Positions 1 to 64,000 of a stretch of DNA of 64,000 nucleotides are shown piece after piece (the stretch's first letter is position 1; the number at the start of each line of letters is the position of its first letter). The notes beneath the pieces are model-generated. The model was not told the origin of the DNA and made no database searches. It worked only from the letters and a program-made list of their open reading frames with translations. Source of the DNA: Ideonella sp. MAG2 (lineage in GTDB: Bacteria > Pseudomonadota > Gammaproteobacteria > Burkholderiales > Burkholderiaceae_C); assembly GCA_004359425.1 (NCBI GenBank), contig PTEU01000001.1, positions 1,019,733 to 1,083,732 on the forward strand, given 5' to 3'. A program made the position numbers and the translations under genes.

Positions 1-164
1 CGGCATGTGCGCGCGGCTCAGGTCGGTGGCGGCCCCCACCACCAGCCACCAGCACGCCCGCAGGCAGGCCCCAGCGCTGGGCCAGGGCCGGGCGCAGTTG
101 GCCGCTGGGCGCGCTGCCTTCCACCAGGCGCGGCATGTGCGCGCGGCTCAGGTCGGTGGCGGCC
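1..164. repeat. 34-bp direct repeat within xylB (copies 1-34 and 131-164)
   Basis: Bases 1-34 and 131-164 are identical and in the same orientation, 130 bp apart. The second copy encodes a normal xylulokinase segment (ATDLSRAHMP). The first copy, at the very edge, is out of frame with the gene. This is either a tandem duplication breaking xylB or an assembly artefact at a contig end. Confidence 0.8.
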
Positions 165-736
165 AGTAGTTCATGGGACCAATCGCGGGCCGCCACATCC
201 AGCCACAAGGTGCCTGATGCATCAGACATGTCGCTGACCCTCTCGCCCGTCATCTGCAGGCGCAGCCAGTCCTTGGGCAGCAGCACGCAGCGGGTGCGCT
301 CAAACAAGGCCGGTTCGTGCTGGGCCACCCAGCGCAGCTTGGGCGCGGTAAAGCCGGGCATGGCCAGGTTGCCGCTGATCTGGCGCAAGCGCGGGCACGC
401 GGCCTCCAGCTCGGCGCATTGCGGGCCGCTTCGGCCATCGTTCCACAAGATGGCGTCGCGCAGCACCTGGTCGGCCTCGTCCAGCAGCACCGCACCATGC
501 ATCTGGCCCGACAGGCCGATGGCCTGTACTTGAGCGAGCGCTTGGGGTTGGTCGGCCCCCAGGCGCAGCAGCGCCCGGTCGGTGGCAGCCCACCAGTCGG
601 CAGGGGCCTGCTCGCGCCACAAGGGCTGGGGTTGCTGCACGGCCAGCGGCTCGCCCACCACGGCCAGCACCTGATGTTGGTCGTTGAGCAACAGCACCTT
701 CACTTCTGAGGTGCCTAGGTCGATGCCGATGAACAT
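1..736 (-). CDS. xylB: xylulokinase, N-terminal half (cut by window edge)
   Basis: FGGY-family carbohydrate kinase that would phosphorylate D-xylulose, the product expected from the polyol dehydrogenases upstream. The start MFIGIDLGTSEVK carries the phosphate-1 loop, and GLSGQMHG and a WNDGR-type sugar-binding segment follow. About 234 residues read normally, up to a VAGGGG segment. The DNA then re-enters a copy of positions 131-164 in another frame. The start codon overlaps the stop of the araC remnant (ATGA), so it is the last visible gene of the polyol operon. The C-terminal half lies outside the window or is disrupted. Confidence 0.85.
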   Translation of the reverse strand, partial: MFIGIDLGTSEVKVLLLNDQHQVLAVVGEPLAVQQPQPLWREQAPADWWAATDRALLRLGADQPQALAQVQAIGLSGQMHGAVLLDEADQVLRDAILWNDGRSGPQCAELEAACPRLRQISGNLAMPGFTAPKLRWVAQHEPALFERTRCVLLPKDWLRLQMTGERVSDMSDASGTLWLDVAARDWSHELLAATDLSRAHMPRLVEGSAPSGQLRPALAQRWGLPAGVLVAGGGGRHRPEPRAHA

Positions 737-1445
737 CAGTGCTTGCCCTTGAAGCGCTGCGCAGCTTGGCGGCGGAACTCGCTGGGCGTCAGGCCCTTGA
801 TTTCCAAGAAGCGGCGGTTGAAGTTGGCCACATTGTTGAAGCCCACCTCGTAGCAGATGTGGGTGATGAGGCGGTCCGAGTCCATCAGCAACTGGCAGGC
901 GCGGTTGACGCGGATGCGGTTCACAAAATCGGTGAAGGTGTTGCCCGTGGCCTTGCGGAAGAAGCGCGAGAAGCGGCTCTCGCTCATGCCCAGGTCTTCG
1001 GCGAGTTCGGTGGCCGACAGGCTTTGGGCCACGTTGTCGGTCAGGCGCTGAACAATGGCGTTGATCTGGTCGAGCTGCGTGTCATCGTCGGCGCTTTGCA
1101 TCTGCACGCTGGACAGCAGACGGTAGTCGGTGCAGGCCGCCATTTCGGCCAACAGCTCGGTGAAGGCGGCAAAGCGATGCAGCCCACGGTGCGCCACAGC
1201 ACCAAGTGGCCCGGCTCAAACGGGCCGATCCAATCGCCCACAAAGGCCTTGCCCGAAGTGGCCACGATGAGGTGCAACTCATACTCGTCGTGGTGGTGCC
1301 AACGTGCCAAGGGTGTGGGAAAGCCGTGCGATAAGCAGCGCACAAAGCCTACTTCCTCCGGGCTCTCATAGCCCAGCGAGGGGCTGCGCGCATAGTCGCG
1401 CTCCAGCTCGGGCTGGCGTTGGCGGGGCAAGGTGGACTTGGGCAT
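736..1445 (-). pseudogene. AraC-family transcriptional regulator, broken by internal deletion
   Basis: Two parts of one AraC-type regulator lie in different frames. From 1445 the N-terminal cupin-like sensor part reads with the HHHDEYELHL motif and runs to PGHLVL. From about 1197 another frame carries the C-terminal part (RFAAFTELLAE, LSSVQMQS, then a full AraC double helix-turn-helix with GMSESRFSRFFRK and VGFNNVANFNRRF). A complete relative would have roughly 75 extra residues between them, so about 0.2 kb is missing near 1190-1207 and the frame is lost. It sits between the SDR gene and xylB on the same strand and was probably the local activator of this polyol operon. As read, no intact sensor-plus-DNA-binding protein can be made. 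Confidence 0.85.
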
Positions 1446-1452
1446 GGGCTGT

Positions 1453-2247
1453 TCAGCTCATCACCGAGCCGCCGTCAACATTCAAAGTCTGAGCCGTCAC
1501 GTAGCTGGACTCCTCGCTCGCCAAAAAGACGGCCGGGCCGCAGATGTCTTCGGGGTGGCCCATATAGCCCAGCGGCACGGCCAGGCCCACGCGCTTCTTT
1601 TTCTCGCCAATGGGCAGGCCCTCGTATTTGGCAAACAGGCCATCCACATGGGCCCACATGGGCGTGTCGATGACGCCAGGCGAGATGGCATTGACGCGGA
1701 TCTGATGCGGCGCCATGGCGAGCGCGGCACTTTGGGTGTAGCTGATCACGGCCGCCTTGGTGGCGCAGTAGTGTGAGACCAGCGCTTCACCGCGCCGCCC
1801 GGCCTGGGAGCTCATGTTGATGACTGAGCCCCGCGTACCCTGGGCCACCATGCGGGCCAGCACCTTTTGCATCACAAAAAACATGCCTTTCACATTCACC
1901 GCAAAGAGTTTGTCATACATGGCCTCGTCGCTCTCCAGCAGCGGGGCCATGTCAAAGACGGCGGCATTGTTGAACAAGACCTGCACGGGGCCAAAGCGGC
2001 CTTCTGCCGAAGCCAGCAGGGCCTCGATCTCGTCCATGCGGGTGATGTCGGCCGGCACATAGTGCAGGGCCTCCGGGTGGGCGGTGAGCAGGGCTTGCAG
2101 CTCGGCACTGGGTTTGGCGCTGAGGTCCACAACGGTGCAGCGCGCACCTTGCTGTAGATAGGCCTGGGCCACGGCCAGGCCGATGCCGCCGCCTGCGCCC
2201 GTCAACAGCGCGTGCTTGCCAGCAAGCCGGAGTGAGGTGGGGTTCAT
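1453..2247 (-). CDS. SDR polyol dehydrogenase (sorbitol/L-iditol 2-dehydrogenase type)
   Basis: 264-residue classical short-chain dehydrogenase. It shows the NAD-binding TGAGGGIG loop near residue 16, NNAA near 92, catalytic Ser followed by YCATK, and a C-terminal dinucleotide-fold ending NVDGGSVMS. Family and neighbours suggest oxidation of a hexitol such as sorbitol or galactitol to a ketose in the cytoplasm. The start overlaps the stop of the upstream dehydrogenase gene by 4 bp (ATGA), showing translational coupling. Exact substrate cannot be read from sequence; the closest named relative is SmoS of the sorbitol/mannitol operon. Confidence 0.85.
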   Translation of the reverse strand: MNPTSLRLAGKHALLTGAGGGIGLAVAQAYLQQGARCTVVDLSAKPSAELQALLTAHPEALHYVPADITRMDEIEALLASAEGRFGPVQVLFNNAAVFDMAPLLESDEAMYDKLFAVNVKGMFFVMQKVLARMVAQGTRGSVINMSSQAGRRGEALVSHYCATKAAVISYTQSAALAMAPHQIRVNAISPGVIDTPMWAHVDGLFAKYEGLPIGEKKKRVGLAVPLGYMGHPEDICGPAVFLASEESSYVTAQTLNVDGGSVMS

Positions 2248-3668: not shown

Positions 3669-3689
3669 GGTCGAGCGTCTCCAGCGGCG

Positions 3690-4739: not shown

Positions 4740-4749
4740 GGTGGCTCCT

Positions 4750-5577
4750 TTACTTGACAGCGCCAAAGGTCAGGCCTTGGACGAGTTGTTTTTGGCTGAA
4801 CCAGCCGAACACGACGATGGGGGCAATGGCCAGCAACGAGGCAGCCGAGAGCTTGGCCCAGAACAGCCCTTCGGGGCTGGAGTAAGAGGCAATCAAAGTG
4901 GCCAAGGTGCCCGCCTTGGCTGCGCTGAGGTTGAGGCTCCAAAAGGCCTCGTTCCAGCTCAGTACCAAGCACAGCAGGCCGGTGGACGCCAAGCCACCCA
5001 TGCCTAGCGGCAGCAGCACCAAGCGGGCCTCTTGCCACAAGGTGGCACCGTCCATGCGCGCCGCCTCCAGGATCTCGTGCGGGATGTCCTTGAAGTGCGA
5101 GTACAGCATCCACACCATGATGGGCAAGTTGGACAGCGTGAACACGATGATCAGCCCCAACTGCGTGTCCAGCAGCGCGGTCTTTTGCGCCATCACGTAG
5201 ATGGGCACCAGAGCCCCAACGGCCGGCATCATCTTGGTGGACAGCATCCACATCAGCACATCTCGCGTGCGAGGGCTTTTGAAGAAGGCCATCGAGTAAG
5301 CGGCCGGTGCCGCCAGCAGCAAGCCCAAGAGCGTGGACACCACACTGGTGATGACCGAGTTCTTGGCATACAGCAGGTAGTCGCTGCGCTCTTGCACCTC
5401 ATGAAAGTTCTCCAGCGTGGGGCTGAAGAAAAACTCTGGTGGAATGGCAATGGCCTGCAACTCGGTTTTGAAGGCGGTCATCACCAAAAAGGCCAGCGGG
5501 AAGAACAGCAGCAGGGTGATGGCCCAGGCCGCCAGCGTACGCAGGATCAAGGTGTAGGGAAAGGGTGAGGGGCGCAT
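4750..5577 (-). CDS. smoG: polyol ABC transporter permease 2
   Basis: 275-residue MalG-type inner-membrane permease. About six hydrophobic segments are visible, plus the cytoplasmic EAA coupling loop ILEAARMDGATLWQEARLVLLP, which docks onto the ATPase. It begins 5 bp after the first permease gene and ends 10 bp before smoK, so it belongs to the same transcript. The full-length match to the sorbitol/mannitol transporter family comes from overall similarity and gene order. Confidence 0.92.
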   Translation of the reverse strand: MRPSPFPYTLILRTLAAWAITLLLFFPLAFLVMTAFKTELQAIAIPPEFFFSPTLENFHEVQERSDYLLYAKNSVITSVVSTLLGLLLAAPAAYSMAFFKSPRTRDVLMWMLSTKMMPAVGALVPIYVMAQKTALLDTQLGLIIVFTLSNLPIMVWMLYSHFKDIPHEILEAARMDGATLWQEARLVLLPLGMGGLASTGLLCLVLSWNEAFWSLNLSAAKAGTLATLIASYSSPEGLFWAKLSAASLLAIAPIVVFGWFSQKQLVQGLTFGAVK

Positions 5578-5582
5578 GGTCG

Positions 5583-14025: not shown

Positions 14026-14402
14026 ATGTTCAAGGTGTTGATCGTCGACGACGATGCCGAGATCGGCACCCTGCTGTGTGCGGCTTTGGCGCGCCACGGC
14101 CTGCAGGCTGAGCACTTGTTGGACGGCCAAGGCCTGCTCAAACGCTTGGCGCGGGGGGATGTGGATGTGCTCATCTTGGACCGCATGCTGCCTAGCGAAG
14201 ACGGCCTGAGCCTTTGCGGCGCGGTGCGCCAGCGCCACACCCTTCCCATCTTGATGCTGACGGCGATGGGCGACCCGGTCGACCGCGTGGTGGGCCTGTA
14301 TGGATGGCCCAGGCCCATGGCGGCACGCTGAGCCTGCACGCACGCGAGGGCGGCGGCCTGACGGTGCGCATGAGCCTGCCCGGCGCAGTGTGTCCAGATT
14401 GA
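14026..14402 (+). pseudogene. collapsed two-component pair: response-regulator receiver fused out of frame to histidine-kinase tail
   Basis: From 14026 an OmpR-type receiver domain starts normally (MFKVLIVDDDAEIGTLLCAAL, phosphoacceptor in VLILDRMLP, then LMLTAMGDPVDRVVGL). It breaks at about 14300, where intact relatives continue with GADDYLPKPF and a DNA-binding domain. The next bases, in another frame, encode the very end of a histidine-kinase ATPase domain (AQAHGGTLSLHAREGGGLTVRMSLPG, stop at 14402). The receiver C terminus, DNA-binding domain and nearly the whole kinase are missing, a loss of well over 1 kb. No functional two-component system remains. Confidence 0.85.
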
Positions 14403-15424: not shown

Positions 15425-15478
15425 GCGCCATGGCCCGAACCTTTGGGCACCCGACTCAAGGAGCGGGCCGACCAAGGC

Positions 15479-34961: not shown

Positions 34962-37074
34962 GGGGTGGGTCCTCGTCCTGGCGCTCGGGCTCTGTGCTGT
35001 GGAGGATCTCACCCAGCACCGCTGTGGCATAGCTGCCTGCGGCCAGGCTAAAGCTGATGATCAGTTGGTCGGCCTGCGGCCATTCCCAGCTCATGTCTAT
35101 CGGCTGGGCCACCAGGGCGCGGCGCTCTTGGTCTAGGCCGGCAAATTCCATGCCGCTGCACAAGGTGGCGTGGCGTTCGGCCACGCTGTTTTCCAGGGCT
35201 TGGGCTTGGTCGGTGGTGCTCACGCGGCCACGGCCCCACAGCGGGCCGGTGGGCTGGCCGGCCTCGTTCAGCACGTCGCCGGGCAGGGTTTGGCCCCACA
35301 GCCCTTGCTGCATGCGCAGCGCCAGCACTTCATTGAAGATGAAAGAGCGCACCGCCGACAGGTAGATGCCTTTCTTCTTCGGGTTGCGCACGCGGATCTC
35401 GCGGGCCAGCATGGCGCGGCCTTGCTCAACGTTGCCACCATCGTGGCCAAAACGCTGGGCGCCAAAGTAGTTGGGCACACCCTTCGCCGCCACGGCTTGC
35501 AGGTTCGCCTCCAGCGCCTCGCGGTCGCCCGTCACCTCACGCAGCACGATGCGAAAGCGGTTGCCTTGCAGGTCACCCGGGCGCAGCTTCTTCACGTGGC
35601 GGCTCTGGCTCAGCACCTTATATTCTGGGTGCTGAAGCTGGGTCAGGTCGGGCGTGTCACCCTTGGGCAGATAGATGCTGAACCATTGCCGGGTGATGGC
35701 GTAGCGGTCCTTCAGGCCGGCATAGCCCACATCCCACTCGTTCACCCCGGCGGCCAGGGCCAACTGCTGGGCGACAAAGACGGTGTTGGCGCCGTTCTTC
35801 TCCACATCCACCCAAATGTGCTCGCCCGTGCCCGAGGGCAGTTGCAGCGGCAGCTCGGTGACGATGAAGTCCTCGTTGTGGAGCTTCAGGGTGGCGCTGG
35901 CGCCGCTGGTCGGGCTACACCGGCCCAACGGGCATTCAAACACTTTGCCGCCCAGCCATGCGCCCAGGAAGCCGCCGATTTGGTGGGTCAGCATCACGCC
36001 GCCAAACAGCATGGCCATATTGCCGGTGCCAAAGAATTTGGCTACCAAACCAGCCGTGGGTGGCACGGTGGACAGAAAGGTCAGGCCCATCACGGCGGCA
36101 AACACCAACATCACCACGCCTGTTTTGGGTGCGGACAAAAACACCAACACAGCCAGCGCCCGGGTGGCGTACACCAAAGACAGCAAAGACTTCATGCGCC
36201 AGCGGCCCACCGCCCAGCCCATGGCGATGCTGCCAATGATGTTGAATAGGCCCAGCATGGCCAGCGACCAAGCGCCGTATTGCAGGGGCAGGCCGCACAG
36301 CTCGATCACGCCGGGCAGGTGCGTGGCCAAGAAGGCGACGTGGAAGCCGCAGACAAAAAAGCCGCTGGCCAGCATGAGGTAGCTGGGGTGGCGCAGGGCC
36401 TGCGCCAGCGCCTGCCGTGCGGGCAAGGGGGTGCTTTGGGGCGCGCCTGCTGTTGGCCCCACAGCACCGGGCGCGGCGCCGCGCAGCACCCAGGCGGCGG
36501 GCAGTGCCAGCAAGACCAACATGGCCATGACTTGCATGGCGGCCGACCACCCCAGCCCCAGGATCAAGGTGCTGGCAATCGGGGCCATGACAAATTGGCC
36601 AAAGGACCCACCTGCATTGACGATGCCGGTGGCCAGTCCGCGCCGCGCGGGGGGCAGATGGCGCATCGTGGCCGCCATCAGCACGGCAGGCCCGGCAATA
36701 CCGGCTCCACCGGCCGCCAGCACGCCGATAGAGAAGATCAATCCCGCGGTGCTGCTCATCAAGGGTGTCAAAAAGGTGCCCAGCGCCACCAGTGCAATGC
36801 CCATGGCCAGCAAGCGGCCCGCCCCCAGGCGGTCCGCCAGGGCCCCAGCAAAGGGCTGGGTCAAGCCCCACCAGAGCTGCCCCACCGCAAAGGCCAGGCT
36901 GATACTGGCCAGCCCCAGCCCGGTGGCACTGTTTAAGGGACCCAGGAACAAGCCCATGGTCTGGCGGGTGCCCATGGTCAGCGCAAACGTTCCTGCGGCG
37001 GCCACGAGCACGCCCACAAAGAGCCAGTGCGCGCGGCGGTCTGTGGCTGCGGGGTCAAGCTGCGGAGTGGACAT
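34954..37074 (-). CDS. truD: MFS transporter fused in frame to tRNA pseudouridine-13 synthase TruD
   Basis: 706-residue open frame. Residues 1-380 are a major-facilitator transporter (RAHWLFVGVLVAAAGTF through HQIGGFLGAWLGGKVFE) lacking its last helix. Residues 381-393 are encoded by a 34-bp repeat. From about 394 the protein is TruD, which converts U13 of tRNA-Glu to pseudouridine: LKLHNEDFIVTELPL, catalytic Asp in GYAGLKDRYAITRQW, GVPNYFGAQRFG, ending SLAAGSYATAVLGEIL. About 15 N-terminal TruD residues are absent. Normally two separate genes; the fusion looks like a deletion across the gene boundary. The TruD half may still fold. Its MFS half follows marR by 4 bp. Confidence 0.88.
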   Translation of the reverse strand: MSTPQLDPAATDRRAHWLFVGVLVAAAGTFALTMGTRQTMGLFLGPLNSATGLGLASISLAFAVGQLWWGLTQPFAGALADRLGAGRLLAMGIALVALGTFLTPLMSSTAGLIFSIGVLAAGGAGIAGPAVLMAATMRHLPPARRGLATGIVNAGGSFGQFVMAPIASTLILGLGWSAAMQVMAMLVLLALPAAWVLRGAAPGAVGPTAGAPQSTPLPARQALAQALRHPSYLMLASGFFVCGFHVAFLATHLPGVIELCGLPLQYGAWSLAMLGLFNIIGSIAMGWAVGRWRMKSLLSLVYATRALAVLVFLSAPKTGVVMLVFAAVMGLTFLSTVPPTAGLVAKFFGTGNMAMLFGGVMLTHQIGGFLGAWLGGKVFECPLGRCSPTSGASATLKLHNEDFIVTELPLQLPSGTGEHIWVDVEKNGANTVFVAQQLALAAGVNEWDVGYAGLKDRYAITRQWFSIYLPKGDTPDLTQLQHPEYKVLSQSRHVKKLRPGDLQGNRFRIVLREVTGDREALEANLQAVAAKGVPNYFGAQRFGHDGGNVEQGRAMLAREIRVRNPKKKGIYLSAVRSFIFNEVLALRMQQGLWGQTLPGDVLNEAGQPTGPLWGRGRVSTTDQAQALENSVAERHATLCSGMEFAGLDQERRALVAQPIDMSWEWPQADQLIISFSLAAGSYATAVLGEILHSTEPERQDEDPPLT
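35900..35933 (+). repeat. 34-bp repeat, copy 2, at the MFS-TruD junction
   Basis: Perfect copy of 30579-30612. It occupies almost exactly the 12-13 codons that belong to neither the transporter nor TruD (CPLGRCSPTSGA on the minus strand). Imperfect hairpin potential suggests a REP-like dispersed element or filler DNA at a deletion junction. Confidence 0.85.
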
Positions 37075-38610: not shown

Positions 38611-39680
38611 AGAAGCTGGATGTCTTCTTTGGCGGCTGGGGCCAACGGTGGCTGCTGGGCACATTGGCGGACGATGGGCGGCAGTTGTTGTTTGAGTATT
38701 CAGCAGAGGCCTTGAAGCAGGGCCTTGAGTTGTCTGCCCTGAAACTGCCCTTGCGCGCGCAGGCCTACGGCGGTTTCCCGCCCTACCTCAGCCGCCTGCC
38801 TGGCGTGGTGGCCGACTCCCTGCCCGATGGCTGGGGCCTGCTGCTGATGGACCGCCTCTTCTTGCAGAGCAGGCGGCCCTTGGCAGGCATCTCGCCGCTG
38901 GATAGGTTGAGCTTCATTGGTGAGCGGGGCATGAGCGCCTTAACCTTTGTGCCGGCAAGCAAAGCATCTTTGTCGGCAGACGACCTGAGCCTGTTGCAGA
39001 TGGCTCAAGCGGTGCGCGAGGTGGTGGCGGACAGGGACACGGCGGCCTTGCAGCAATTGGCCATGGTGGGCGGCTCCCCGCATGGCGCGCGGCCCAAGGT
39101 GCTGGTGCAATACGACGTTCAGCATCAGCGCATCAGCACCTTAGATGGCGCACCCGGCACACCCTGGCTCATCAAGTTTCCTGCCGGGCAAGAGCACAAA
39201 GAGGTCTGTGCCATTGAGCTGGCTTACTGCGGCATGGCTCGCCGCTGCGGCTTGGAAGTGCCCACCACAAAGCTGTTTGAGATCAATCGCAACTTGGCTG
39301 CGTTTGGCATCGAGCGCTTTGATCGCGAGCGCGGCATGCGGGTGCCGGTGCAATCTTTTGCTGCCGCACTCCACGCGGATTTCAGAGTCCCGTCTCTGGA
39401 CTATCAAAGCATTCTTCGAGCGACGCTGTACTTCACGGCAGATGTCAGGCAGGTCGAAGCGGCCTTCCGGCGCTGTGTGTTCAATGTGGTGTTCAACAAC
39501 CGTGACGACCACGCCAAGAACTTTGCGCTGCGCATGAATGAGCAAATGCAATGGCAGCTCGCACCCGCCTATGACCTGACGTTCAACAGCGGCCCCGGCG
39601 GCTACTACCCCTCGATCCGAAAGGGAAGCGTGGCCATGATCACGTCTGCTGTCGCTGCCAACATGAATCGTTGCGCTTGA
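38607..39680 (+). CDS. HipA-like kinase toxin, second module, C-terminally truncated
   Basis: 357 residues. The N-terminal domain (LPDGWGLLLMDRLF), activation segment MVGGSPHGARPKVLV, catalytic loop NRDDHAKNFAL and PAYDLTFNSGPGG are present. Intact relatives of this short HipA group continue for about 80 residues past GPGG; here the frame ends after an unrelated tail (YYPSIRKGSVAMITS and on). The kinase core is mostly complete but the C-terminal helical bundle is missing, so activity is doubtful. It is distinct in sequence from the hipA at 21.7-23.0 kb. Confidence 0.8.
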   Translation: MKKLDVFFGGWGQRWLLGTLADDGRQLLFEYSAEALKQGLELSALKLPLRAQAYGGFPPYLSRLPGVVADSLPDGWGLLLMDRLFLQSRRPLAGISPLDRLSFIGERGMSALTFVPASKASLSADDLSLLQMAQAVREVVADRDTAALQQLAMVGGSPHGARPKVLVQYDVQHQRISTLDGAPGTPWLIKFPAGQEHKEVCAIELAYCGMARRCGLEVPTTKLFEINRNLAAFGIERFDRERGMRVPVQSFAAALHADFRVPSLDYQSILRATLYFTADVRQVEAAFRRCVFNVVFNNRDDHAKNFALRMNEQMQWQLAPAYDLTFNSGPGGYYPSIRKGSVAMITSAVAANMNRCA

Positions 39681-39852: not shown

Positions 39853-40441
39853 GAACAAGACCCGCCACAGCAGAATGTCCGCCAAAGAGGCCACCCGCGA
39901 GCGCATCGTGGCAGTGGCGGCCCGCGCCATTCGCCGCCAGGGTTACGACGGCGTGGGCGTGGCAGATGTCATGAAGCAAGCCGGTTTGACGCACGGCGCG
40001 TTCTATGCACATTTCGCTTCACGCGAGGCCATGTTGGCCGAGGCAGCCCGTCAAGCCTGTGCGGAGTCGGCTACCGCCGTGGCCAGCGTTGTGGCCCAAG
40101 CACAGCAGGGTGAGGCGCTCACCGCGCTGCTTCAGGCCTACCTTTCCAAAGAACATCTGGAGCATGCCGAGGTGGGTTGCCCACTGGCTGCCTTGGCCTC
40201 AGAGACCCCGCGTCAAGCCGCAGAGGTGAGGCGCGCCACCACCCAGCACCTGAAGGAAATGGTGGACTTGGCGGCCCGCCAATCGCCAGACTGGGGCCAA
40301 GCCGCCGCTCATGAGCGTGCCTTGGCCACCATCGCGACGCTGGTGGGCACCGTGGTGCTGGCCCGTGCTGTGGATGACCCCACCTTGGTTGACAGCCTGC
40401 GAGAAGCGGCGCTGAAGCACTTGCGCCCGCCTGCCTCCTGA
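39848..40441 (+). CDS. TetR-family transcriptional regulator
   Basis: 197 residues from ATG 39848; ATG 39875 (MSAKEATRERIVAVAARAI) is an equally good start. Helix-turn-helix: GYDGVGVADVMKQAGLTHGAFYAHFASREAML. The C-terminal part (GCPLAALASETPRQ) matches the AcrR/NemR-like group with a conserved Cys. Divergent regulation is not possible here; it reads toward the oxidoreductase, probably its repressor. Confidence 0.87.
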   Translation: MPNKTRHSRMSAKEATRERIVAVAARAIRRQGYDGVGVADVMKQAGLTHGAFYAHFASREAMLAEAARQACAESATAVASVVAQAQQGEALTALLQAYLSKEHLEHAEVGCPLAALASETPRQAAEVRRATTQHLKEMVDLAARQSPDWGQAAAHERALATIATLVGTVVLARAVDDPTLVDSLREAALKHLRPPAS

Positions 40442-40481
40442 CATTGGAGTCTGAGCCCGGCGCGCTATACCGTCTTTTGAT

Positions 40482-40495
40482 ATGATGATCATCAT
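40482..40495. promoter_or_regulatory. perfect palindrome before the oxidoreductase gene
   Basis: ATGATGATCATCAT, 14 bp, shares the ATGAT/ATCAT arms of the dyad at 39833-39852. Likely second operator of the TetR regulator. Confidence 0.5.
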
Positions 40496-40500
40496 GCGAA

Positions 40501-41361
40501 ATGACGACGATGGCCTGTTTGGCGTCACATTCCTTACCGCTCATCTTGGGGCACGACGTTGCGGGCGAGGTGGCCCAGGTCGGCGCACAAGTGACCCAAT
40601 TTCGGCCTGGTGACGAAGTCTATGCAAGGCTGGGCGACCTGCGTCTTGGCAGCTTTGCAGAGATGGCGGCCGTGAAGCAAGGCTTGCTCGCACACAAGCC
40701 TGCGGGCATCAGCATGGTAGAGGCGGCCTCTTTGCCTCTGGTGGGACTGACCGCTTGGCAGGCCCTGGTCGAAGTCGCCCAAGTGAAGCAGGGTCACAAG
40801 GTGTTCATTCAAGCGGGTTCGGGTGGCGTGGGCACCTTTGCCATCCAGCTGGCCAAGCATCTGGGTGCGACCGTGGCCACCACCACCAGCGCGGCGAACG
40901 TGGACCTTGTGAAACGCTTGGGCGCTGACCTGGTGATCGACTACAAAACACAGGACTTTGAAGCACTGCTGCAAGACTACGACGTGGTGCTTCACAGCCA
41001 AGATGCGACGGCGCTCGAAAAGTCTCTGCGTGTGCTCAGGCCAGGCGGCAAGCTGGTGTCCATCTCTGGCCCCGCAGACCCTGCATTTGGCCAGCAAGTG
41101 GCCGCCTCTGGGTTGGTGAAACTCGTTCTACGACTACTCAGCGCCGGGGTGCGCCGCCGGGCTCGCCACCGAGGCGTGGACTACCACTTTCTCTTCATGC
41201 GGCCTGATGGGGCGCAATTGAAGGAGATCACCCGGCTTGTGGAATCGGGCGTCATTCGGCCCGTCATCGACAAAGTCTTTCCCTGGGAAGCCACCAACCA
41301 AGCCCTGGACTATGTGGAGTCTGGGCGTGCCAAGGGCAAGGTGGTGGTGAGCATGCACTGA
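40501..41361 (+). pseudogene. NADP-dependent quinone oxidoreductase, N-terminally truncated
   Basis: 286 residues of a zinc-free medium-chain dehydrogenase (QOR/RTN4IP1 type). The nucleotide fold is intact: VFIQAGSGGVGTFAIQLAKHLGA and VIRPVIDKVFPWEATNQALDYVESGRAKGKVVV. The frame opens with MTTMACLASHS and joins the family at LPLILGHDVAGEV, so about 50-55 residues of the GroES-like substrate domain are missing. Located downstream of tetR, with a palindrome in between. Probably non-functional, though the frame is open. Confidence 0.8.
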
Positions 41362-41990: not shown

Positions 41991-41997
41991 GCGCAGG

Positions 41998-42382
41998 GAC
42001 GGACCCTGTGGTGCTGCAGGCGGCTGTGCTTCACGACACGGTGGAGGACACCGATACCAGCTTGGAAGAGCTGACCACGCACTTCGGCCCGCAAGTAGCC
42101 GCTGTGGTGGCCGAGTTGACTGACGACAAGCGCCTGCCCAAAGTTCAGCGCAAGGCTTTGCAGGTTGAGCACGCACCGCACAAGTCGGCTCAAGCCGCTC
42201 TGGTCAAGTTGGCCGACAAAACCTGCAATCTGCGGGACATCATCGCCTCGCCCCCTGCAGATTGGCCGCTGCAGCGTCGCCGCGATTACTTCGACTGGGC
42301 CTTGCAGGTGGTGCAAGGCTTGCCGCCGGTCAGCCCCGCGCTGCGGGCTGCCTTTGATGCGGCGTATGCTCAGCGGCCGTGA
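41998..42382 (+). pseudogene. HD-domain (p)ppGpp-hydrolase-like protein, N-terminally truncated
   Basis: From GTDPVVLQAAVLHDTVEDT the frame follows small alarmone hydrolases (SpoT/MESH1 type): HD motif in VLHDTVED, ALVKLADKTCNLRDI, and a C-terminal DYFDWALQVVQGL. The first ~45 residues, with the first metal-binding His, are absent; upstream codons are antisense to the nuclease-like gene. The missing part would lie exactly at 41991-42006. As read, the metal site is incomplete. Confidence 0.8.
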
Positions 42383-42387
42383 GTGCC

Positions 42388-43811
42388 TCACACATCAATC
42401 GCACCGGCCGACCCGGCCTGCTTGCGCAGCTCGAACTTTTGGATCTTGCCGGTTGAGGTTTTGGGCAGCTCCCCAAAGACCACGGCCTTGGGCACTTTGA
42501 AGCCCGCGAGGTGCTGTTTGCAGTGGGCGACTACGGCCTCAGCGCTGAGTTGTGAGCCGGGCTTCAGTTCCACAAAGGCGCATGGCGTTTCGCCCCACTT
42601 AGGGTCGGGCTTGGCCACCACGGCGGCAGCCAGCACATCGGGGTGGCGGTAGAGCACGTCTTCAACCTCAATGGAAGACACGTTCTCGCCGCCCGAGATG
42701 ATGATGTCTTTGCTGCGGTCCTTGATCTTTATGTAGCCATCCGGATACTGCACTGCCAAGTCGCCCGTGTGGTACCAGCCACCGGCAAAGGCCTCTGCGG
42801 TGGCAGCGGGGTTCTTCAAGTAGCCCTTCATCACGATATTGCCGCGGAACATGATCTCGCCCATGGTCTCGCCATCCCAGGGCACGGGCTGCAGGGTGGT
42901 GGGGTCGAGCACCGCCGCGCCGCGCTGTAGGTGATAGCGCACGCCTTGGCGGGCGTTCAAGCGGGCGCGCTCGCCGATGTCCAACTGCTCCCACTCGCCA
43001 TGCTTGGCACAGGCCGTGGCGGGGCCGTAAACCTCGGTCAGGCCATAGACATGGGTGAGGTCAAAGCCCAGGGCTTCCATGCCTTCAATCAACGAGGCCG
43101 GTGGTGCGGCGCCCGCCACCATGGCTTTGACACCGCGAGGCAGCTTGGCCTTGAGCTCGGCCGGTGCGTTGACCAGCAAGCTGTGCACGATGGGCGCGCC
43201 GCAATAGTGGGTCACGCCATGCTCGGCCATGGCTTGGGCCATCGCGGCGGCTTCCACTTTGCGCAGGCACACATTGACGGCGGCGCGGGCGGCCAGCGTC
43301 CAGGGGAAGCACCAGCCATTGCAATGGAACATGGGCAGCGTCCACAAATAGACCGCATGCTTGGGCAGGTCCCACTCCAAGATGTTGGAGACTTGCTTTT
43401 GCGCAGGGTCAGTGCCTTGTGCAACGTGGCTGCAAACTCCACATCCACGATCACCGCTTTGGCCTCGCCATGGTCCAGCATGAAGGCAATGGTCTCGGCA
43501 TCCAGCCGGGTGTTGAGCGCATTCAACACCGCACCGGCCATCGGAATGCCAAAGTGCGCTTCCACCATGGGCGGCGTGTTGGGCAACATCACCGCCACGG
43601 TTTCACCCACACCGATGCCCGCTTGGCTCAAGGCACTGGCCAGGCGGCGGCAGCGGGCGTAGGTTTCGCCCCAGCTTTGGCGCAGTGAGCCGTGAATGAT
43701 GGCCGTGCGCTGGGGATAAACCTCGGCCGTGCGCTCGATGAACAGCAGCGGCGTGATGGGCGCGTGGTTGGCAGGGTTGCGGTCCAGGTGCTGTTGATAG
43801 ATGGAGGGCAT
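42388..43811 (-). pseudogene. acyl-CoA synthetase (AMP-forming), internal deletion with frameshift
   Basis: From 43811 the N-terminal half reads MPSIYQQHLDRNPANH to HKALTLRKSK. From about 43380 another frame continues ISNILEWDLPKHAVYLWTLPMFHCNGW through the AMP-binding C-terminal domain (YHTGDLAVQYPDGYIKIKDRSKDIIISGGENVSSIEVED, TGKIQKFELRKQ). About 85 residues, including the P-loop-like YTSGTTGNPKG motif, are missing near 43390-43397. Such enzymes activate medium-chain or aromatic acids with CoA. Not functional as read. Confidence 0.87.
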
Positions 43812-46219: not shown

Positions 46220-46514
46220 CCCACTCTCACACCCGAGTCGTGGCGTGCCGGGCCCCAAAGGACAGTAGTTCACTTTGCTCAGCCACACCATGGATGAGGT
46301 CTTGGTCCAGGACGACGACAAGCACTTGCGCGTGGTTCTTTCCCTGCACCGAACACGCGACCCGCATGGGCTGTCTGACGACTTGGTACTAACCACGGTG
46401 GTACATATTCACAATCTATGGGGTCACCTTTATATGTTGCCCGTTAAGCCCTTGCATCAAATCATTGCACCAGCAGTGCTGGCGCGGTTTTCGCAGGGGA
46501 GTGTGATCGCGTGA
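46216..46514 (+). pseudogene. DUF2867 protein remnant, internal deletion
   Basis: The N terminus MTHSHTRVVACRAPKDSSS starts at ATG 46216, overlapping the ABC1 stop (ATGA). The C-terminal part is in another frame: MDEVLVQDDDKHLRVVLSLHR to DLVLTTVVHIHNLWGHLYMLPVKPLHQIIAPAVLARF, ending at 46514. Roughly 90-100 residues expected between them are missing around 46262-46280. The remnant keeps operon spacing with both neighbours. Confidence 0.75.
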
Positions 46515-49316: not shown

Positions 49317-50464
49317 ATGACTTGCCCCAAGCCCCCCATCACCTCCAAGCCCTTGAATGTCCACACCTTGATGCCCGTCACCGACCGCCCAGAGCAGGTC
49401 TTTGTGCGGGGCGAGGGCGCCTGGCTGTGGGATGCGGCGGGCAGGCTTTGCAGGCGCAAAGCAGCTTGCTGCTGACGCCCAGCCCCGCGCTCTACAACCT
49501 GCCGGCGCTGCAACTGGCCCAGCAGCTGTGTGGCTTGAGTGGCATGGACCAGGTCTTCTTTGGCAGCACGGGGGCGGAGGCGAACGAAGGGGCGATCAAA
49601 CTGGCGCGCAAATGGGGGCGGCTGCATCGAGCGGGGGCGCACGAGATCATCACGTTTGAATATGGCTTTCATGGGCGCAACTTGGCGACCATGGCGGCCA
49701 GTGGCAAGCCGGGCTGGGACCAACTATTTGCGCCGCGCATGGAAGGCTTTGCCAAGGCGCGCTTGAACGACCTGGGCAGTGTGAAGGCGCTGCTGAACGA
49801 GCGCACCGTGGCCATCATGCTGGAGCCCGTGCAGGGCGAGGCCGGCGTGCGGCCCGCCACGCCAGCCTTTTTGCAAGCCCTGCGCGCGCTGTGTGACGAG
49901 CAGGGCTTGCTGCTGATCTTTGACGAGGTGCAGACCGGCTGTGGCCGCCTGGGCACTTTGTTTGGCTTTCAGCACTTTGGCGTGCGGCCCGACATCCTGA
50001 CCCTGGGCAAGGGCTTGGGCGGCGGCGTGCCCATTTCGGCCGTGCTGGCGCAGGCCCACTGCAGCGTGTTTGAGCACGGCGACCAAGGCGGCACCTATGC
50101 CGGCAACCCGCTGATGTGTGCGGTGAGCTTGGCAGTGCTGGCGCAGTTGAGCCAGCCGGAATTTTTGGCGCAGGTGCGCAGTTTGGGGCAGCAACTGCGG
50201 CGCGGTTTGGTGATGCTCTCGGCCCAGCATGGCCTGGGCGAAGTGCGCGGCGCGGGCTTGCTGTGGGCGCTGGAGTTGGGCTGCGACCATGCTCCGGACC
50301 TGGTGCGCGCGTGCCGCGAGCGAGGCCTGCTGCTCAATGCAGCTCGCCCGCATTGCCTGCGCTTCATGCCTCGGCTCAACAGCACGGCTGAGGAGATCGA
50401 GCAAGGCCTAGGCATTCTGGGGGCGGCCTTGGCGTCGCAGCCCGCCCTCGGCATGGCCGCCTAG
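49317..50464 (+). pseudogene. acetylornithine/aspartate-family aminotransferase (PLP), internal deletion
   Basis: From ATG 49317 the N terminus reads MTCPKPPITSK to VRGEGAWLWDAAG, then enters a stop. Another frame continues from about 49450 with LTPSPALYNLPALQLAQQL, GSTGAEANEGAIKLARKWGR and the PLP-Lys segment LTLGKGLGGGVPISAV. About 30 residues (the usual YLDWVQGWAVNCLGH region) are missing, with a frame change, at 49437-49452. A GCTTTGC/GCAAAGC dyad lies at the junction. Class III transaminase of the ArgD/GabT group; not functional as read. Confidence 0.85.
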
Positions 50465-51572: not shown

Positions 51573-52201
51573 AACACCAGCACCTTCAAGGCGCGGTCTT
51601 CATCTACATCGGCAAATGAGGGCGGGTTGGCCAACCGCTCCACCAGGGTGAACATGGGGGCCTCTTGCTGCACCAGGTCCAGCAAGAACTGCGGCCCCAA
51701 CTCCGGCGCATTCAAGGCCAGCAAGGCGTGGCCGCCGGGGGCGATCAGGTCGGGCAGGCGGCGCACCACGCGCGCATAGTCTTTGCTGGCCACAAAGCTG
51801 CCTTTAACCTCATAGCGCGCATCATGCTCGGTGACGATGTGCGGCGCAGGCACGCTACCTGCCATCAGCCGGTTCTCCGTACCCCCAAGGGACGGGCTGT
51901 GCCCGTCCCTGCCCCCCGAGGGGGCGCAAGAAAACTTGGGGCGGTATTCATCCCGATGCTGAAACACCCAGTTCAAGGGCTGGCCCGGTGCCAGCTCAGC
52001 CCAGCGGGCCTCCAGCGCCTTGCCTACTTGCTCCAACTCATCGTCAGTGACCGACGCAAAGCTGGTCAGCAGCCAAACCGGAGGGTAGAAGTCCAAGGCC
52101 CACTGCTCATGGCCTGGGTGCAAGCCACCCCGGCCATGAAAGACGCGGCAGGCCTGGGTTGGCTTGGGCAGGCTGGCAATGGTGGCGAGCAAGGCGCGCA
52201 T
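51530..52201 (-). pseudogene. class I SAM methyltransferase with the SAM-binding core deleted in frame
   Basis: 223 residues where relatives have over 300. The N terminus (MRALLATIASLPKPTQACRVFHGRGGLHPG) and the C terminus (KGSFVASKDYARVVRRLPDLIAPGGHALLALNAPELG) both match one family of RlmI-like methyltransferases. The middle, with the glycine-rich SAM loop and DPP motif, is gone; the junction ARYEV-KGSF lies at about 51801-51805. An extra ~20-residue segment (CAPSGGRDGHSPSLGG) is encoded by an in-frame double hairpin at 51887-51924. Confidence 0.8.
51887..51924. repeat. double-hairpin mini-repeat inserted in the methyltransferase gene
   Basis: Perfect arms AGGGACGGGC (51888-51897) and GCCCGTCCCT (51901-51910), then CCCCC-GA-GGGGG. 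The element is in frame and lacks an equivalent in the protein family. It resembles the REP-like elements common between genes in this group of bacteria, here inside a coding region. Confidence 0.75.
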
Positions 52202-57799: not shown

Positions 57800-58387
57800 T
57801 TAATTTGAGATGGCCTTGCGCAGCGCAATTTGTTGCCGGACCTCCATCAAGGCAATTCCCAAGAGATTGAGCCCAGGCCATTGGGTGGGCCTTGACGCAT
57901 TAGGATGGTCGGCCGCCAGACCAATGCCCCAAATGCTGTCAACGGGACTGGCCTCGACGAGAACTCTGCTGCCAGTGGAGAGAAGAAAACCGGACATGCG
58001 GTCGCGTTGCGAAAACTTGGCCAAGTTGGCAGAGCAGACGATTTGGAACCGATGGGCCTCCCAAGTCGATTCCACATACCCCCGAACCTGACGCCCGAGT
58101 CGTTTAGCCTCGCCAGGATGCACGGCTTTGAGGATGCGTTCACGGCAGGCAAGGTCACCAAACAGCAGCGCTTTGGCCGCCATCATGTAATGCTCTGCCG
58201 TTCGGTAGATGTGGCCATCTAGCTCGAATGGAGCTGGATACCACTGGCTAAAGCATGCCTTGCAAACTACGTCCGGTTGGGTGGGTGTATGCCCCCAAAA
58301 GAATAGGTACTTGACCTGCCCGCCGCTTCGGGTCTGCTCCCGCAGCTTTTCTAGGTGGCGCGAGTCATTTATGAGACTTGCCTTCAT
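57800..58387 (-). CDS. NADAR-domain ADP-ribose hydrolase (YbiA-like)
   Basis: 195 residues from 58387. NADAR features: [52 protein letters not shown] and DSIWGIGL. These remove ADP-ribose, notably from guanine bases, or act in riboflavin/NAD turnover. The gene is read downstream of and overlaps the macrodomain gene by 23 bp, so both act on ADP-ribosylated substrates. Less GC-rich than nearby genes. Confidence 0.87.
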
Positions 58388-58880
58388 TGAGTATTCGTTG
58401 GTAGATGTTGGTGTCCTTTTGGGTGAAGCAGCAGAAAACGACCTGACTAGGCCACTGGCCTCGCCAAGCGGTGACTGTTGCCATGGCAATCTCAGCAGCC
58501 TGCTCCGCCGGGAACCCATATGAACCTGTGCTGATGCAGGGAAAGGCGATGCTCTTCAGTTGATGCAGTTCGGCCAAACTCAAACAGGCGGCGTAGCAAC
58601 TGGCGAGAAGTTCTGGTTCGCCGTCCGAGCCTCCACGCCAGACAGGCCCCACCGTGTGGATGACATGAGCGGCAGGCAGGCGAAACCCCGGTGTGATTTT
58701 GGCCGCACCTGGTTGGCAGCTATACAGGGCACGGCATGCGTCCAGCAGTTCTGGGCCCGCCGCGCGGTGGATGGCCCCGTCGACACCACCTCCTCCCAAG
58801 AGACGGCTGTTGGCTGCATTGACAACGGCGTCGACATGTAAGCGTGTGATGTCGCCTTGAAAAACGGTGATGCTTAGCAT
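58365..58880 (-). CDS. macrodomain ADP-ribose-binding/hydrolase
   Basis: 171 residues. Macro fold of the YmdB/MacroD type: [39 protein letters not shown], catalytic Asn/Asp loop, and ISTGSYGFP. Would deacetylate O-acetyl-ADP-ribose or remove ADP-ribose from proteins. Its promoter carries the 48-bp dyad at 58899-58946, shared with divergent kptA. Confidence 0.92.
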
Positions 58881-58898
58881 GATGTGTGGTTTCGCTTG

Positions 58899-58946
58899 AC
58901 TTAGTTTTATAAATGAACTTATGATAGTTCATTAATACAACTAAGT
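58899..58946. promoter_or_regulatory. nested palindromic operator between macrodomain and kptA genes
   Basis: Outer arms ACTTAGTT (58899-58906) and AACTAAGT (58939-58946) enclose inner arms ATGAACT (58913-58919) and AGTTCAT (58926-58932). The 48-bp AT-rich dyad sits in the divergent promoter. The outer arms recur before pncA at the window end, pointing to one NAD-responsive repressor; an NrtR-type regulator is the natural candidate, though none lies here. Confidence 0.7.
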
Positions 58947-59026
58947 AAAGATAGGGGGTGACGGGTTACCTGGGAGGGCCCCTCACATTTGAATGACCTC
59001 AGCCTCCCCAAAAGAAGAAGGAAATC

Positions 59027-59243
59027 ATGATGTCTCAGAGAAATTCCCTGGTATCTGCCAGCAAGTTTCTCAGCCTGGTACTGCGGCACGAACCGCAACG
59101 AGCAGGCTTGACGCTGGAAGAGGGCGGATGGGTCAAAGTAGACAACCTATTGCAGGGCTAAGGGACATGTGTTCTATCGCTCTGCTAACGGAGTCTGGTT
59201 GGTCGATCATGTGCCCGTCAGTCGCGTGAGTGTGTTGAACTGA
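59027..59243 (+). pseudogene. kptA: RNA 2'-phosphotransferase KptA/Tpt1, internal deletion
   Basis: N terminus MMSQRNSLVSASKFLSLVLRHEPQ to EGGWVKVDNLL, then a stop at 59161. The next two bases on, a second frame gives GHVFYRSANGVWLVDHVPVSRV to 59243, the KptA end. Roughly 100 central residues, including most NAD-binding residues, are missing. KptA removes a 2'-phosphate using NAD, producing ADP-ribose cyclic phosphate, so it belongs to this cluster by function. AAGGA precedes the start. Confidence 0.87.
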
Positions 59244-59260
59244 TTGAAGGTGATCAAGAC

Positions 59261-59638
59261 ATGCCAAGAACCATCACCCTCTATCGTCCGGTTGGGCCCT
59301 CAGAGCTGGCCCTGTTGAAAGCCAGTGGCTGGCGACGTTGGCCCGCGCGGCTTCCAGACCAGCCCATTTTTTACCCAGTAACCAATCAGGTTTACGCTGA
59401 GGAAATCGCCCGTGATTGGAACGTGCCAGCGAGCGGTGCTGGCTATGTGACTCGCTTTGAGGTGTTGTCGTCTTTCATGGCGCGATACTCGATCCATCAG
59501 GTTGGGGCCGCACAACACAAAGAGTGGTGGATTCCGGCGGAGGAACTTGAAGCGCTCAACGAGGCCATCATTGGCCAGATCGAGTTGGTCGCTTCTTTCA
59601 CAACCACTGGCTCCAACCAGTCGAAAAGTGCTGAATGA
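59261..59638 (+). CDS. ADP-ribosylation/crystallin J1-like small protein
   Basis: 125 residues starting MPRTITLYRPVGPSELALLKASGW. Matches the family usually labelled ADP-ribosylation/crystallin J1 (QPIFYPVTNQVYAEEIARDWNVPASGAGYVTRFEV, EWWIPAEELEALN). The biochemical role is undetermined; the fold may be of the ADP-ribosyltransferase type. Downstream of kptA and overlapping the convergent NadM-Nudix gene by 41 bp. Confidence 0.8.
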   Translation: MPRTITLYRPVGPSELALLKASGWRRWPARLPDQPIFYPVTNQVYAEEIARDWNVPASGAGYVTRFEVLSSFMARYSIHQVGAAQHKEWWIPAEELEALNEAIIGQIELVASFTTTGSNQSKSAE

Positions 59639-60464
59639 TGTGGAAATGGTCGTCGTGGAACTGGTCTTCCAGCGCAGCCAGTTCTTGCAAAGGCACCCAC
59701 TGGGCCGTCTGTGCGTCATCAGCCGCTTCAATGTGCGGTAGCGGAATGTCACCCAGGTCGAAGTAAAAGGCATGCGTGATGGTGCGGCCGCGTTGGCTGC
59801 GGTCAGGGTGGTCAAACACCTGGCTGCCGCGCAGGGCACTCATGAGGCGGGTGTCGCTGAGGCGGGTTTCCTCTTCCAGCTCGCGCAGGGCGGATTGCAG
59901 CGCGGTTTCGTTGAGGTCAATGAATCCACCAGGCAGGGCCAGCAGGCCCAGGCCAGGGTGCTGGCCACGCCGGATCAGCAGCACGTGGTTGGCACAACGC
60001 ACTACCGCATCCACGGTGACGAAGACGGGTGGATAGGGGGCCACCGACCATGCTTGGGCATAAGCCTGAAGTGAGCGCCATTCGGCCTGCAATGCGGCCC
60101 ATGGGGGGCTACCGGCCCAGGCTCGAAGCAGGGCTTGGCTGCCCTGGGGCAAGTCGGCGGAGAGAGCTTGCAGGGTGTCGGGTAGTTGCTCGGCCGTGGA
60201 TGCCCACAAGCGTTGCCGCAGGGCGGTGGCGTCGATGTCAGCCTGGTGGGGCATCAGGTGTTTTTGCCACTGCGGAACGGCCTGCAGGTACTCGCTGCTG
60301 CCGCCTTTCTCATGGCCCACCAGCAGCACTCGTTGTGGCTGGGGGGACAGTGCCATGATGAGTGCTTCGACGGCCACAGCCCACCGGGCAGGGTCGTAGA
60401 GATCTCGCTGGGGCAGCACGGTGATGCGTGCCCGCTCCTCGGCCGTTAGTGAGGCCTGAATCAT
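59598..60464 (-). pseudogene. nadM: bifunctional NMN adenylyltransferase/Nudix hydrolase, N-terminus deleted
   Basis: 288 residues of a family that is about 340 long. The frame starts at MIQASLTAEERARITVLPQRDLYDPARW, so the first ~50 residues with the GRFQPFHNGH nucleotidyltransferase site are absent. The rest is intact, including the Nudix box GFIDLNETALQSALRELEEET. The Nudix part (ADP-ribose pyrophosphatase) might still work; NAD synthesis by this protein could not. The start overlaps the truncated nadE stop, evidently a junction artefact of one deletion. Confidence 0.85.
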
Positions 60465-61879
60465 CTCCGATCTGCAGAAGGGGGCTTGTCGAGGATGGCT
60501 TCGGGAATGAGGGGGTAGCCTGCGCTGTCATTGAGGTGGCGGGCCAGGGCAAAGACCTCGGTTTTGTAGAGGTCGCCGATGAGCCCTAAGCCGCCATTGG
60601 TGTCGCCATACAGCGTGCAGTAGCCCACCGCGATCTCAGACTTGTTGCCCGTGGTCAGCAAGAGGTGGCCTTCTTGGTTGGAGTAGGCCATCAGCATCAA
60701 GCCGCGAATGCGGGCTTGCAGGTTCTCGGCGGCCACCCCTTGCAGGGCCAAGCCTGTGGCCTCTCGATAGGCAGTCTCGGCGCTGCTGACCATGGGGGCG
60801 ATGGGCAGCTCGATCAATTTAACGCCCAAGTTGCGGCACAGCGCCACAGAGTCGGTGACCGAGCCCGTAGACGAATAGCGCGAGGGCAGGGTGATGGCAA
60901 CAACCTGCTCGGCCCCCAGGGTTTCGGCGGCCAGGGCCAGGGTGACGGCGCTGTCTATGCCACCAGAGCAGCCCACCAGGGCGCGGCTGAAACCGCAGCG
61001 CCGCGCATAGTCACGCAGGCCCAGCACGATTTGCGCTCGGTAGAACGCCTGGGTGCTGAGGCCCACTGGGTCGATGGCGGCTGGCCGCTGTCCGTCTAAG
61101 AGGCTGAAGCGGCCGTCGGCAAAGGCCAAGGTTTGCACATGCTCGGTGAAGCGTTGGGCTTCATAGACCACGCCAGCTTGGGGCTCTACGGCGAAGGAGG
61201 CACCATCAAATACCAATTGGTCTTGCCCACCCACCTGGTTGACATAGAGCAGGGGCAGCCCATGGCGGCGGCTGGCCTGTGTGAAGACCTGATGCCGCAG
61301 CGCGCGCTTGCCCACATCCGAGGGGCTGGCATTGAGGGACACCAACAGGTCTGGCGCAGCCGCTTGCAAGCGCTCAAAGGGGTTAAGTTCGTAGTCCTCG
61401 CCGTCGTCGTTCCAGCCGTCTTCGCAGATGAGCAGGCCGATGCGGGTGTCGCCCACCTTGAGCACAGGGGCCACGTCAGGGCCGGGCTCAAAGTGCCGCC
61501 GTTCGTCAAAAATGTTGTAGGTGGGCAGCAGTTGCTTGGCATAGCGCAGCAGCTCTTCGCCGGCTTTGAGCACCACCAGGCCGTTGTGAAGCGGCTTGCC
61601 AGGGCCTGTGCGGGGCAGGGGCAGGCCAATCACCCAGACCAAATCGCGCATCTGGCGTGAGGCTTGGCGCAAGGCCTCCAAGCCACTGTCAATGCGGGCC
61701 AGAAAGGCGGGGTCTTCCAGCCAGTCACCGGGGCTGTAGCCACACAAGGAAAGCTCAGGAAAGACGATGACATCGGCGTCGTCTTGCCGGGCCTGTTGCG
61801 CTGCTTGAACCATGCGGGCGACATTGCCGCTCATGTCACCCAACGTAGGGTTGAGTTGGGCTAAGGTGATGCGGATCAT
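60461..61879 (-). pseudogene. nadE: glutamine-dependent NAD synthetase, C-terminus truncated
   Basis: 472 residues from [19 protein letters not shown]. The nitrilase-type glutaminase domain is complete (PELSLCGYSPGDW, LICEDGWNDDGEDYELNPF), as is the ATP pyrophosphatase P-loop GCSGGIDSAVTLALAAE and TTGNKSEIAVGYCTLYGD. It ends ILDKPPSADRR, where relatives go on for about 85 residues. The lost part and the start of nadM are joined at about 60470-60476. Makes NAD from deamido-NAD; normally essential. ATGA-coupled to pncB. Confidence 0.87.
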
Positions 61880-63069
61880 GCGTCGCTCGCAATCTTGAAG
61901 ACTTGGCGCAGATAGGCCAAAAAGGTCTCGTCTTGGCAAAGGGTTTTGCCGGGCGTGTCCGAGAGCTTGGCCACGGGCTGGCCGTTGGCGGCGGTCAGCT
62001 TCATCACAATGTTCAGCGGTGTCAGCCCCAGGTCATTGCTCAAATGGGTGCCAATGCCAAAGCCCAGTTGGGTGCGGTCGCCAAAGTGCTGGTAGAGGCC
62101 GAGGGCGCTGTCCATGCTCAAGCCGTCAGAGAAGACCAAACGCTTGCTGTGTGGGTCGATGCGCAGCGCTTGGTAATGTGCCAGAGCCTTCTCGCCCCAG
62201 GCCACAGGGTCACCTGAGTCGTGCCTCAGGCCATCAAACAGCTTGGCAAAGTAGAGGTCAAAGTCGGCCAAGAAGGCCTCCATGCCCACCACATCGGTCA
62301 GGGCAATGCCCAGGTCACCTCGGTACTCTTGCACCCACTCTTCCAGTGCCAGCCGCTGAAAGTCCCGCAAGCGCACGCCCAGGGCTTGATAGGTTTGCAA
62401 ATATTCGTGGGCCATGGTGCCAATGGGCGTTAAGCCCAGGCTGCGGGCCAGGTGGACGTTGGAGCTGCCCTTGAAAAAGCCAGGCATCGCCTCTTGCAGC
62501 GTCTGCACCACCTCCTGGTGCCAGGCCGCGCTAAAGCGCCTGCGCGTGCCAAAGTCGAAAAACTCAAAGGGATGGCGGCGCGAAGTGGTGCTTAAACCCT
62601 GCGCTAAATGAGTGATCTTGTCTTGCAGGCGTTGCCGCCCTTGGGCCAGGGTGCTTTCGCTGCTGAAACGCCGGAAGTACAGCTCGTTGACCATGGCCAA
62701 GACCGGAATCTCAAAGGCCATGATGTGAACCTGAGGACCTCGGGCCACGATGTGCAGCGTGTCGCCCTCGGTGCTGACCTCTATGAAGCGGCGCTGAAAG
62801 CGGAACAGGCGCAAAAAGTCGACGAAGTCGGACTTGATGTAGCGCAACTGGCCCAGGTAGGCCAACTCCTCGTCCGTCAGCGAGAGGGTGCAGAGATGAT
62901 CGAGCTGTTGGTTCAGCTCGGCGGCCAGGTCGGCCAAGGCGAAGGCCGGTGTGTTGCGGCAGACAAAGCGGTACTCCGCCTGGGTTTGCGGGTGGCGGTG
63001 CAACATGGCCTGCCACATGGTGAATTTGTAGAGGTCGGTGTCCAGCAGGGTGTGGATGATGGGGGTCAT
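61876..63069 (-). CDS. pncB: nicotinate phosphoribosyltransferase
   Basis: 397 residues from [23 protein letters not shown]. Family segments: [60 protein letters not shown] and [14 protein letters not shown]. Converts nicotinate and PRPP to NaMN in the Preiss-Handler salvage pathway. Between pncA and nadE, giving the order nicotinamide to nicotinate to NaMN to NAD. Confidence 0.95.
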
Positions 63070-63079
63070 AGCAGGGTTC

Positions 63080-63934
63080 TCAAAACAGCCTGTCAAGTGC
63101 TTGGGTGCTGGTGGCCAGGCGCACGCCTTGGGCTTGCATGGTGTCAAAAAACGTTTGCGCGGCTGGCTCAAAACCGGTGACGGGGCTCATGCAGTCTGTC
63201 AACAGCACAATGCGTTGGGGCCGCCCACTGGGCAGGTGGGCGACCAGGTGCTCCACACTGGCCCTGACGCAGTGGCTGCTGGCCTGCCCGGCCACCAGCA
63301 GCAGCTCGGCAGTGTCCAGGTGGGCCAAGGCAGCCTCTTGTAGGCCGGTGTCAGGGTCGGTGAGGTCGGGCACTTCGGCTTGAAAGGCGCTGTAGTGTTC
63401 CGTCCAGGGGTTCAGGCCCTTGAACAGGTAGCGCACAGCTTGTTGCTGGTGTTGTTCCCAGGCTTGGGCAGCCTGGGCAATGTCGGCATGCAGATTGTGG
63501 CCCCAAGTGCCAGTCACGCAGTGGGTGGGCCACACCATCAATTGGTAGCGGCCGGTGGCTTCCAGGGTGTCCAGGTAGCTGAGAACCTTGGGCCGCGCTG
63601 CGGCTGAGCGGGGGCTGTACTCGCCCGCCCGCACCTGGGCTGCGGTGATGCTGGTAAAGGGCGCAACAGGCTGCTCGCCCCGGCTCCACCAAAAGGCCGG
63701 GTGGGCGATGTCAAACACATGGTGGGAATCCAGGGTGATGGTGACGCTCAAGAGGGCGCGCTGGGCCTGGCGCATGAAACCGGCCAAGCGCTGCATGTCT
63801 TGGTGGGCACCGGCCACCGGTAGGGCGGGTGCCATGGGCTGGCTGGTGTGAGGGTCCCTGGGCCACCAATCGGGAGGCAGGTCGCAGAAATCGTTCTGGG
63901 GGTCGATGATGAGCAGTTGAATCGAGCTGGTCAT
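63080..63934 (-). CDS. pncA: nicotinamidase (isochorismatase fold), long form
   Basis: 284 residues. The catalytic Asp is in [12 protein letters not shown], metal-binding residues in [15 protein letters not shown], and the nucleophile Cys in [15 protein letters not shown]. Hydrolyses nicotinamide to nicotinate, entry to the salvage path completed by pncB and nadE. It has inserts that make it longer than E. coli PncA. First gene of the minus-strand NAD operon. Confidence 0.92.
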
Positions 63935-63972
63935 GCAAGTCTCCTTGGAGATGGGACGATGAACGCACTATA

Positions 63973-64000
63973 ACTTAGAAAGTTGCAACAGTAAACTAAG
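63973..64000. promoter_or_regulatory. inverted-repeat operator before pncA
   Basis: ACTTAG (63973-63978) and CTAAG (63996-64000, cut by the window end) flank an inner palindrome GTTGCAAC (63982-63989). The outer arms match those at 58899-58946. Lies about 40 bp upstream of the pncA start, where a repressor would act. Confidence 0.6.

Follow-up and report, generated by a model that had tools for sequence, protein, structure and literature searches.

The window, that is, the whole 64,000-nucleotide stretch of DNA analysed (G000:C2:1019733–1083732), belongs to an assembly (G000) of 4.39 Mb in eight contigs, with a completeness of 91.14. The reference for comparison was G012, an assembly from the same genus (20 contigs, completeness 100) that ranked first in a search of 40 relatives; its contig C17 is colinear with the window, on the opposite strand. 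The earlier note had listed 12 sites in the window at which two conserved parts of genes are abruptly joined, and this deletion anatomy is truly present in the sequence: at eight of the 12 sites the segment is kept by relatives, two sites are partly supported, and the remaining two show a truncated profile only.

An araC-type regulator is interrupted by a join at positions 1186–1198 (site 1197), with a net 220 bp missing, and all seven of the relative loci fetched were longer by 220 bp. Alignment with G012 revealed a net loss of 1299 bp at the join involving a response regulator and the C-terminal part of a histidine kinase (14303–14305, with an odd A at 14304), and a loss of 1553 bp at 41997–41999, where the interiors of two unrelated genes are brought together, that on the right encoding an HD hydrolase. 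No copy of the 1.55 kb segment lost at 41998 was found elsewhere in G000, save for 46 bp with an 83% match. The same comparison showed internal joins in an acyl-CoA synthetase gene (43390–43395, site 43392; 223 bp missing), a class III aminotransferase gene (49441–49444, site 49442; 70 bp missing, A not being the best-fitting base) and a methyltransferase gene (51805–51807, odd A at 51806), the last of these lacking about 336 bp relative to G012 (G012:C17 393316 to 392978). Beyond the methyltransferase join, a palindromic repeat between genes, rich in GC and about 64 bp long (51877–51940), is absent from the equivalent place in G012, and copies 86–92% similar to it occur elsewhere in G000 and in G012.

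In kptA, the internal join at 59158–59163 (site 59159) corresponds to about 345 bp missing: the two pieces of the gene are 4 bp apart in the window and 345–351 bp apart in all seven relative loci with both pieces, a count that leaves aside four more loci yielding a single piece. A Pfam search with the short second piece gave no match. At the nadE/nadM join (60468–60473, site 60472), nadE loses its end and the gene after it its start, usually with about 476 bp missing. Both flanks were matched in 45 of 80 loci, and in 35 of these 45 the window pieces abut (overlap of 4–6 bp) whereas the relative has 461–733 bp between them. Eight of the other 10 loci agree, with a net difference of 470–590 bp; L056 differs by a net 154 bp, and L071, in which nadE was unmatched, is shorter than the window. 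These joins strike two genes of an NAD-related cluster (57800–63934) containing NADAR and macro-domain proteins, kptA, a NUDIX protein, an NAD synthase and a nicotinate phosphoribosyltransferase.

The remaining four sites are less well delimited. The fusion of an MFS permease with TruD (35914–35918, site 35915) is partly supported by Pfam and by the TruD of G012: with a start codon of our own choice, some 20 residues at the N-terminus of the G012 protein have no counterpart in the fused frame, and the gap cannot be sized, since G012 has no MFS gene at this position. Partial support was also obtained for a probable join at 40423–40547 (site 40520) between a tetR gene and a zinc-type oxidoreductase without its N-terminus, the ADH_N match starting at residue 29 of 104; the spacing between tetR and the dehydrogenase gene is 1.1–1.2 kb, at most 1184 bp, in four of the five relatives with both genes and 420 bp in the fifth, as against 102–182 bp in the window. 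The two sites with a truncated profile only are a probable join at 39590–39600, at which hipA has a cut HipA C-terminal domain (HipA_C 2–162 of 213) and no colinear relative, and another at 46220–46275 (site 46270) in a DUF2867 gene (profile positions 82–141 of 142), across which none of the 80 family genomes compared could be matched. Between genes, G012 is longer than the window by 5.2 kb at 42382–42392 and by 6.2 kb at 15425–15478; each of these may be either a difference in gene content or a scaffold join. An RNA family, tRNA or mobile element at the joins was considered and rejected, the Rfam search over the window having returned no RNA family and a single tRNA-Arg only.

The comparison was extended to 464 kb of G000, including the window, and about 520 kb of G012 (GC content of this stretch, 0.641), with chained alignment blocks spanning 263 kb. 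Clean joins were defined as neighbouring blocks no more than 12 bases apart in one genome, between which the other genome has 30 bp or more of additional sequence; a further 88 block pairs with gaps in both genomes were left out of these classes. There were 33 clean joins at which G000 was the shorter genome and six at which G012 was the shorter. The 33 losses ranged from 70 to 5215 bp, with a median of 290 bp, and 27 of them did not exceed 532 bp. The window is ordinary for this assembly. Low coverage driven by base composition was rejected as the cause of the gaps, because the GC content of the missing segments (0.538–0.711) is not extreme. Most of the clean joins had 1–9 extra bases in the alignment, and the blocks overlapped at eight of the 33. 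Microhomology at the gap ends, which the earlier note had proposed as a check, combined with the lack of any constant extra base, as real deletions would show, was not the pattern encountered. A search of the literature on microhomology-driven genome reduction in Comamonadaceae gave nothing useful.

For each join, we scored the single base that, as an insert, gave the best fit of both flanks to G012. A was among the best-fitting bases at 29 of the 33 joins, the exceptions being C2 894634, 984137, 1069174 (window 49442) and 1156958. Plain deletions simulated in the same alignments accommodated A in 35.6% of 2261 cases, and in 39.4% of 4000 cases in a second run. Several equally good positions were common at the real joins, so the simulations were matched on the number of ties; the expectation was then 13.5 joins with A, and none of 20,000 resamplings reached the observed 29. 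When a single position was uniquely best, A was present in eight of 11 joins (the other three having G), against 20% in the simulations (P 2.7e-4). A one-base insert fitted better than none at 13 of the 33 joins, against 18% of the simulations, and worse at one. At the opposite joins, at which G012 is short, A was permitted in two of six. Such a recurrent single A is characteristic of a placeholder of one letter set into gaps.

The 464 kb contain ten single Ns and no longer run of N. At four of the ten (943465, 947864, 1185914 and 1226004), homology to G012 stops on the base preceding the N; at C2:1019732, the base directly before the window, it stops ten bases earlier, and for the other five neither flank is matched in G012. 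Three of the ten Ns have a complete Nextera mate-pair junction adapter no more than 13 bp away. This adapter consists of two 19-base sequences placed head to head, the Tn5 mosaic end in the paired form that arises when Nextera mate-pair fragments are circularised. PMC11575248 gives the 19-mer within the Nextera junction adapters, and the steps of mate-pair library construction, A-tailing among them, are given in PMC6298255. G000 carries 75 copies of the adapter half-site (37 forward, 38 reverse; contigs C1, C2, C4, C5 and C8), but none was found in 15 congeners, and a reversed-pattern control gave no occurrences. The window itself contains no N and no adapter half-site. Seven full adapter pairs lie in the 464 kb; around three of them the G012 coordinates jump back, around three they jump forward, and one is unmatched, so the backward jump predicted for a circularised fragment is not universal. 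At G000:C2:943000–949000 and 1137900–1141500, near retained adapters, blocks are disordered or doubled relative to G012, and these are local misassemblies.

One of the joins outside the window, at C2:875133, falls within secA and cuts it out of frame. G000 has a single secA, in two pieces (profile positions 1–255 and 343–785 of 787), and no third piece covering the middle of the profile (256–342) was found anywhere in the assembly. Neither piece attains the curated cut-off, which is attained in 10 of 14 control genomes. Bacteria cannot do without SecA, and the gene must therefore be whole in the cell. There was no bias towards in-frame losses: the net loss was divisible by three at eight of the 33 joins, and at three of the 18 with both edges in the same ORF. 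Mismatches to G012 in the broken genes (16 of the 18 same-gene cases, two doubtful ORFs being left out) numbered 450, 216 and 1692 at codon positions 1, 2 and 3, with 71.8% at the third position, as compared with 4539, 2262 and 13744 (66.9%) in 114 intact genes. The broken genes are thus under ordinary constraint, with no relaxed selection. The earlier note had left a choice between erosion of the genome by some unusual deletion process and DNA skipped by the assembly or consensus. The former is not supported, in view of the absence of relaxed selection and of in-frame bias and the damage to an indispensable gene; the latter is borne out by the placeholder base, the single Ns, the retained adapters and the broken sole secA.

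We are therefore all but certain that the scars are collapsed gaps from the mate-pair scaffolding of a short-read draft, and not a feature of the organism. Short contigs would have been ordered with a Nextera mate-pair library and, where the length of a gap was not known or was estimated to be nil or negative, the scaffolder would have set one placeholder letter between them. Some of these letters are still N and most now appear as A, the odd A presumably being a converted N. The intervening DNA, 70 bp to about 1.5 kb at each gap, would be present in the cell and lost from the assembly. The lower completeness of G000 (91.14, against 100 for G012) agrees with this reading. What speaks against it is that the window has neither an N nor an adapter, that A is not the best fit at four of the 33 joins, that two of the six opposite joins permit an A, that the missing segments are not extreme in GC content and that the backward jump is seen at only some of the adapters. 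PMC3158087 discusses the possibility that estimated gap lengths are negative, and large scaffolding errors and indels in mate-pair drafts are described in the report on NxRepair (PMC4458127).

A variant of the artefact, in which chimeric reads (arising, for example, from the ligation of A-tailed fragments) were built into contigs with no placeholder from the scaffolder, has very little probability in our view. The commonest odd base is indeed a single A, A-tailing belongs to the mate-pair protocol according to the steps laid out in PMC6298255, and adapters did enter the contigs. However, short forward skips would have to have been favoured over tens of places, and the single Ns at similar breaks make this variant less likely than the setting of a placeholder by the scaffolder. 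There is a similarly slight chance that true recent deletions lie among the gaps, the likeliest candidates being the intergenic joins or the 70 bp loss at 49442, where A is not the best fit, in a lineage with unusually active end-joining.

It is also very improbable that the joins as a whole are real recent deletions, reflecting a very high rate of loss of short segments by end joining, as in an eroding symbiont genome. The joins are clean, relatives keep the segments in place and losses fall predominantly on one of the two genomes (33 against six), which speaks for such deletions. However, they would also have had to cut the only secA out of frame, leave no sign of relaxed selection in the genes that they broke and deposit a single A recurrently at the joins, in an assembly that has single Ns and mate-pair adapters at its other breaks. 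The converse possibility, that the relatives gained the segments by insertion and that the window retains an ancestral short form, is virtually nil: it could apply to the long intergenic differences at 42382 (5.2 kb) and 15425 (6.2 kb), but it is refuted at the gene-internal sites compared with more than one relative, because several relatives from different genera share the long form and the missing parts are conserved parts of their families, such as positions 256–342 of SecA.

Deletional erosion of symbiont genomes produces truncated and fused genes. These are also found in G000, but without decay, with an indispensable gene cut and with a placeholder base at the joins. The mate-pair scaffold misassemblies treated in PMC4458127 resemble those of G000 in the joining of contigs by Nextera mate pairs, in large indel errors and in the preservation of gene order, whereas the errors in G000 are mostly shorter than 600 bp and are marked by one letter. 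The carry-over of Nextera adapters covered in PMC6298255 and PMC11575248 involves the same 19-base half-site and head-to-head pair and the same need for trimming before assembly; in G000, by contrast, 75 half-sites remain in the deposited assembly. The scars have no biological significance: they inform on the sequencing, and their value is that of a warning. Gene fusions, truncated enzymes and absent pathway steps in G000, such as the MFS-TruD fusion and the broken NAD salvage cluster, should not be trusted. Similar drafts can be tested cheaply by looking for a single A or N that recurs where genes are truncated, in combination with the adapter half-site.
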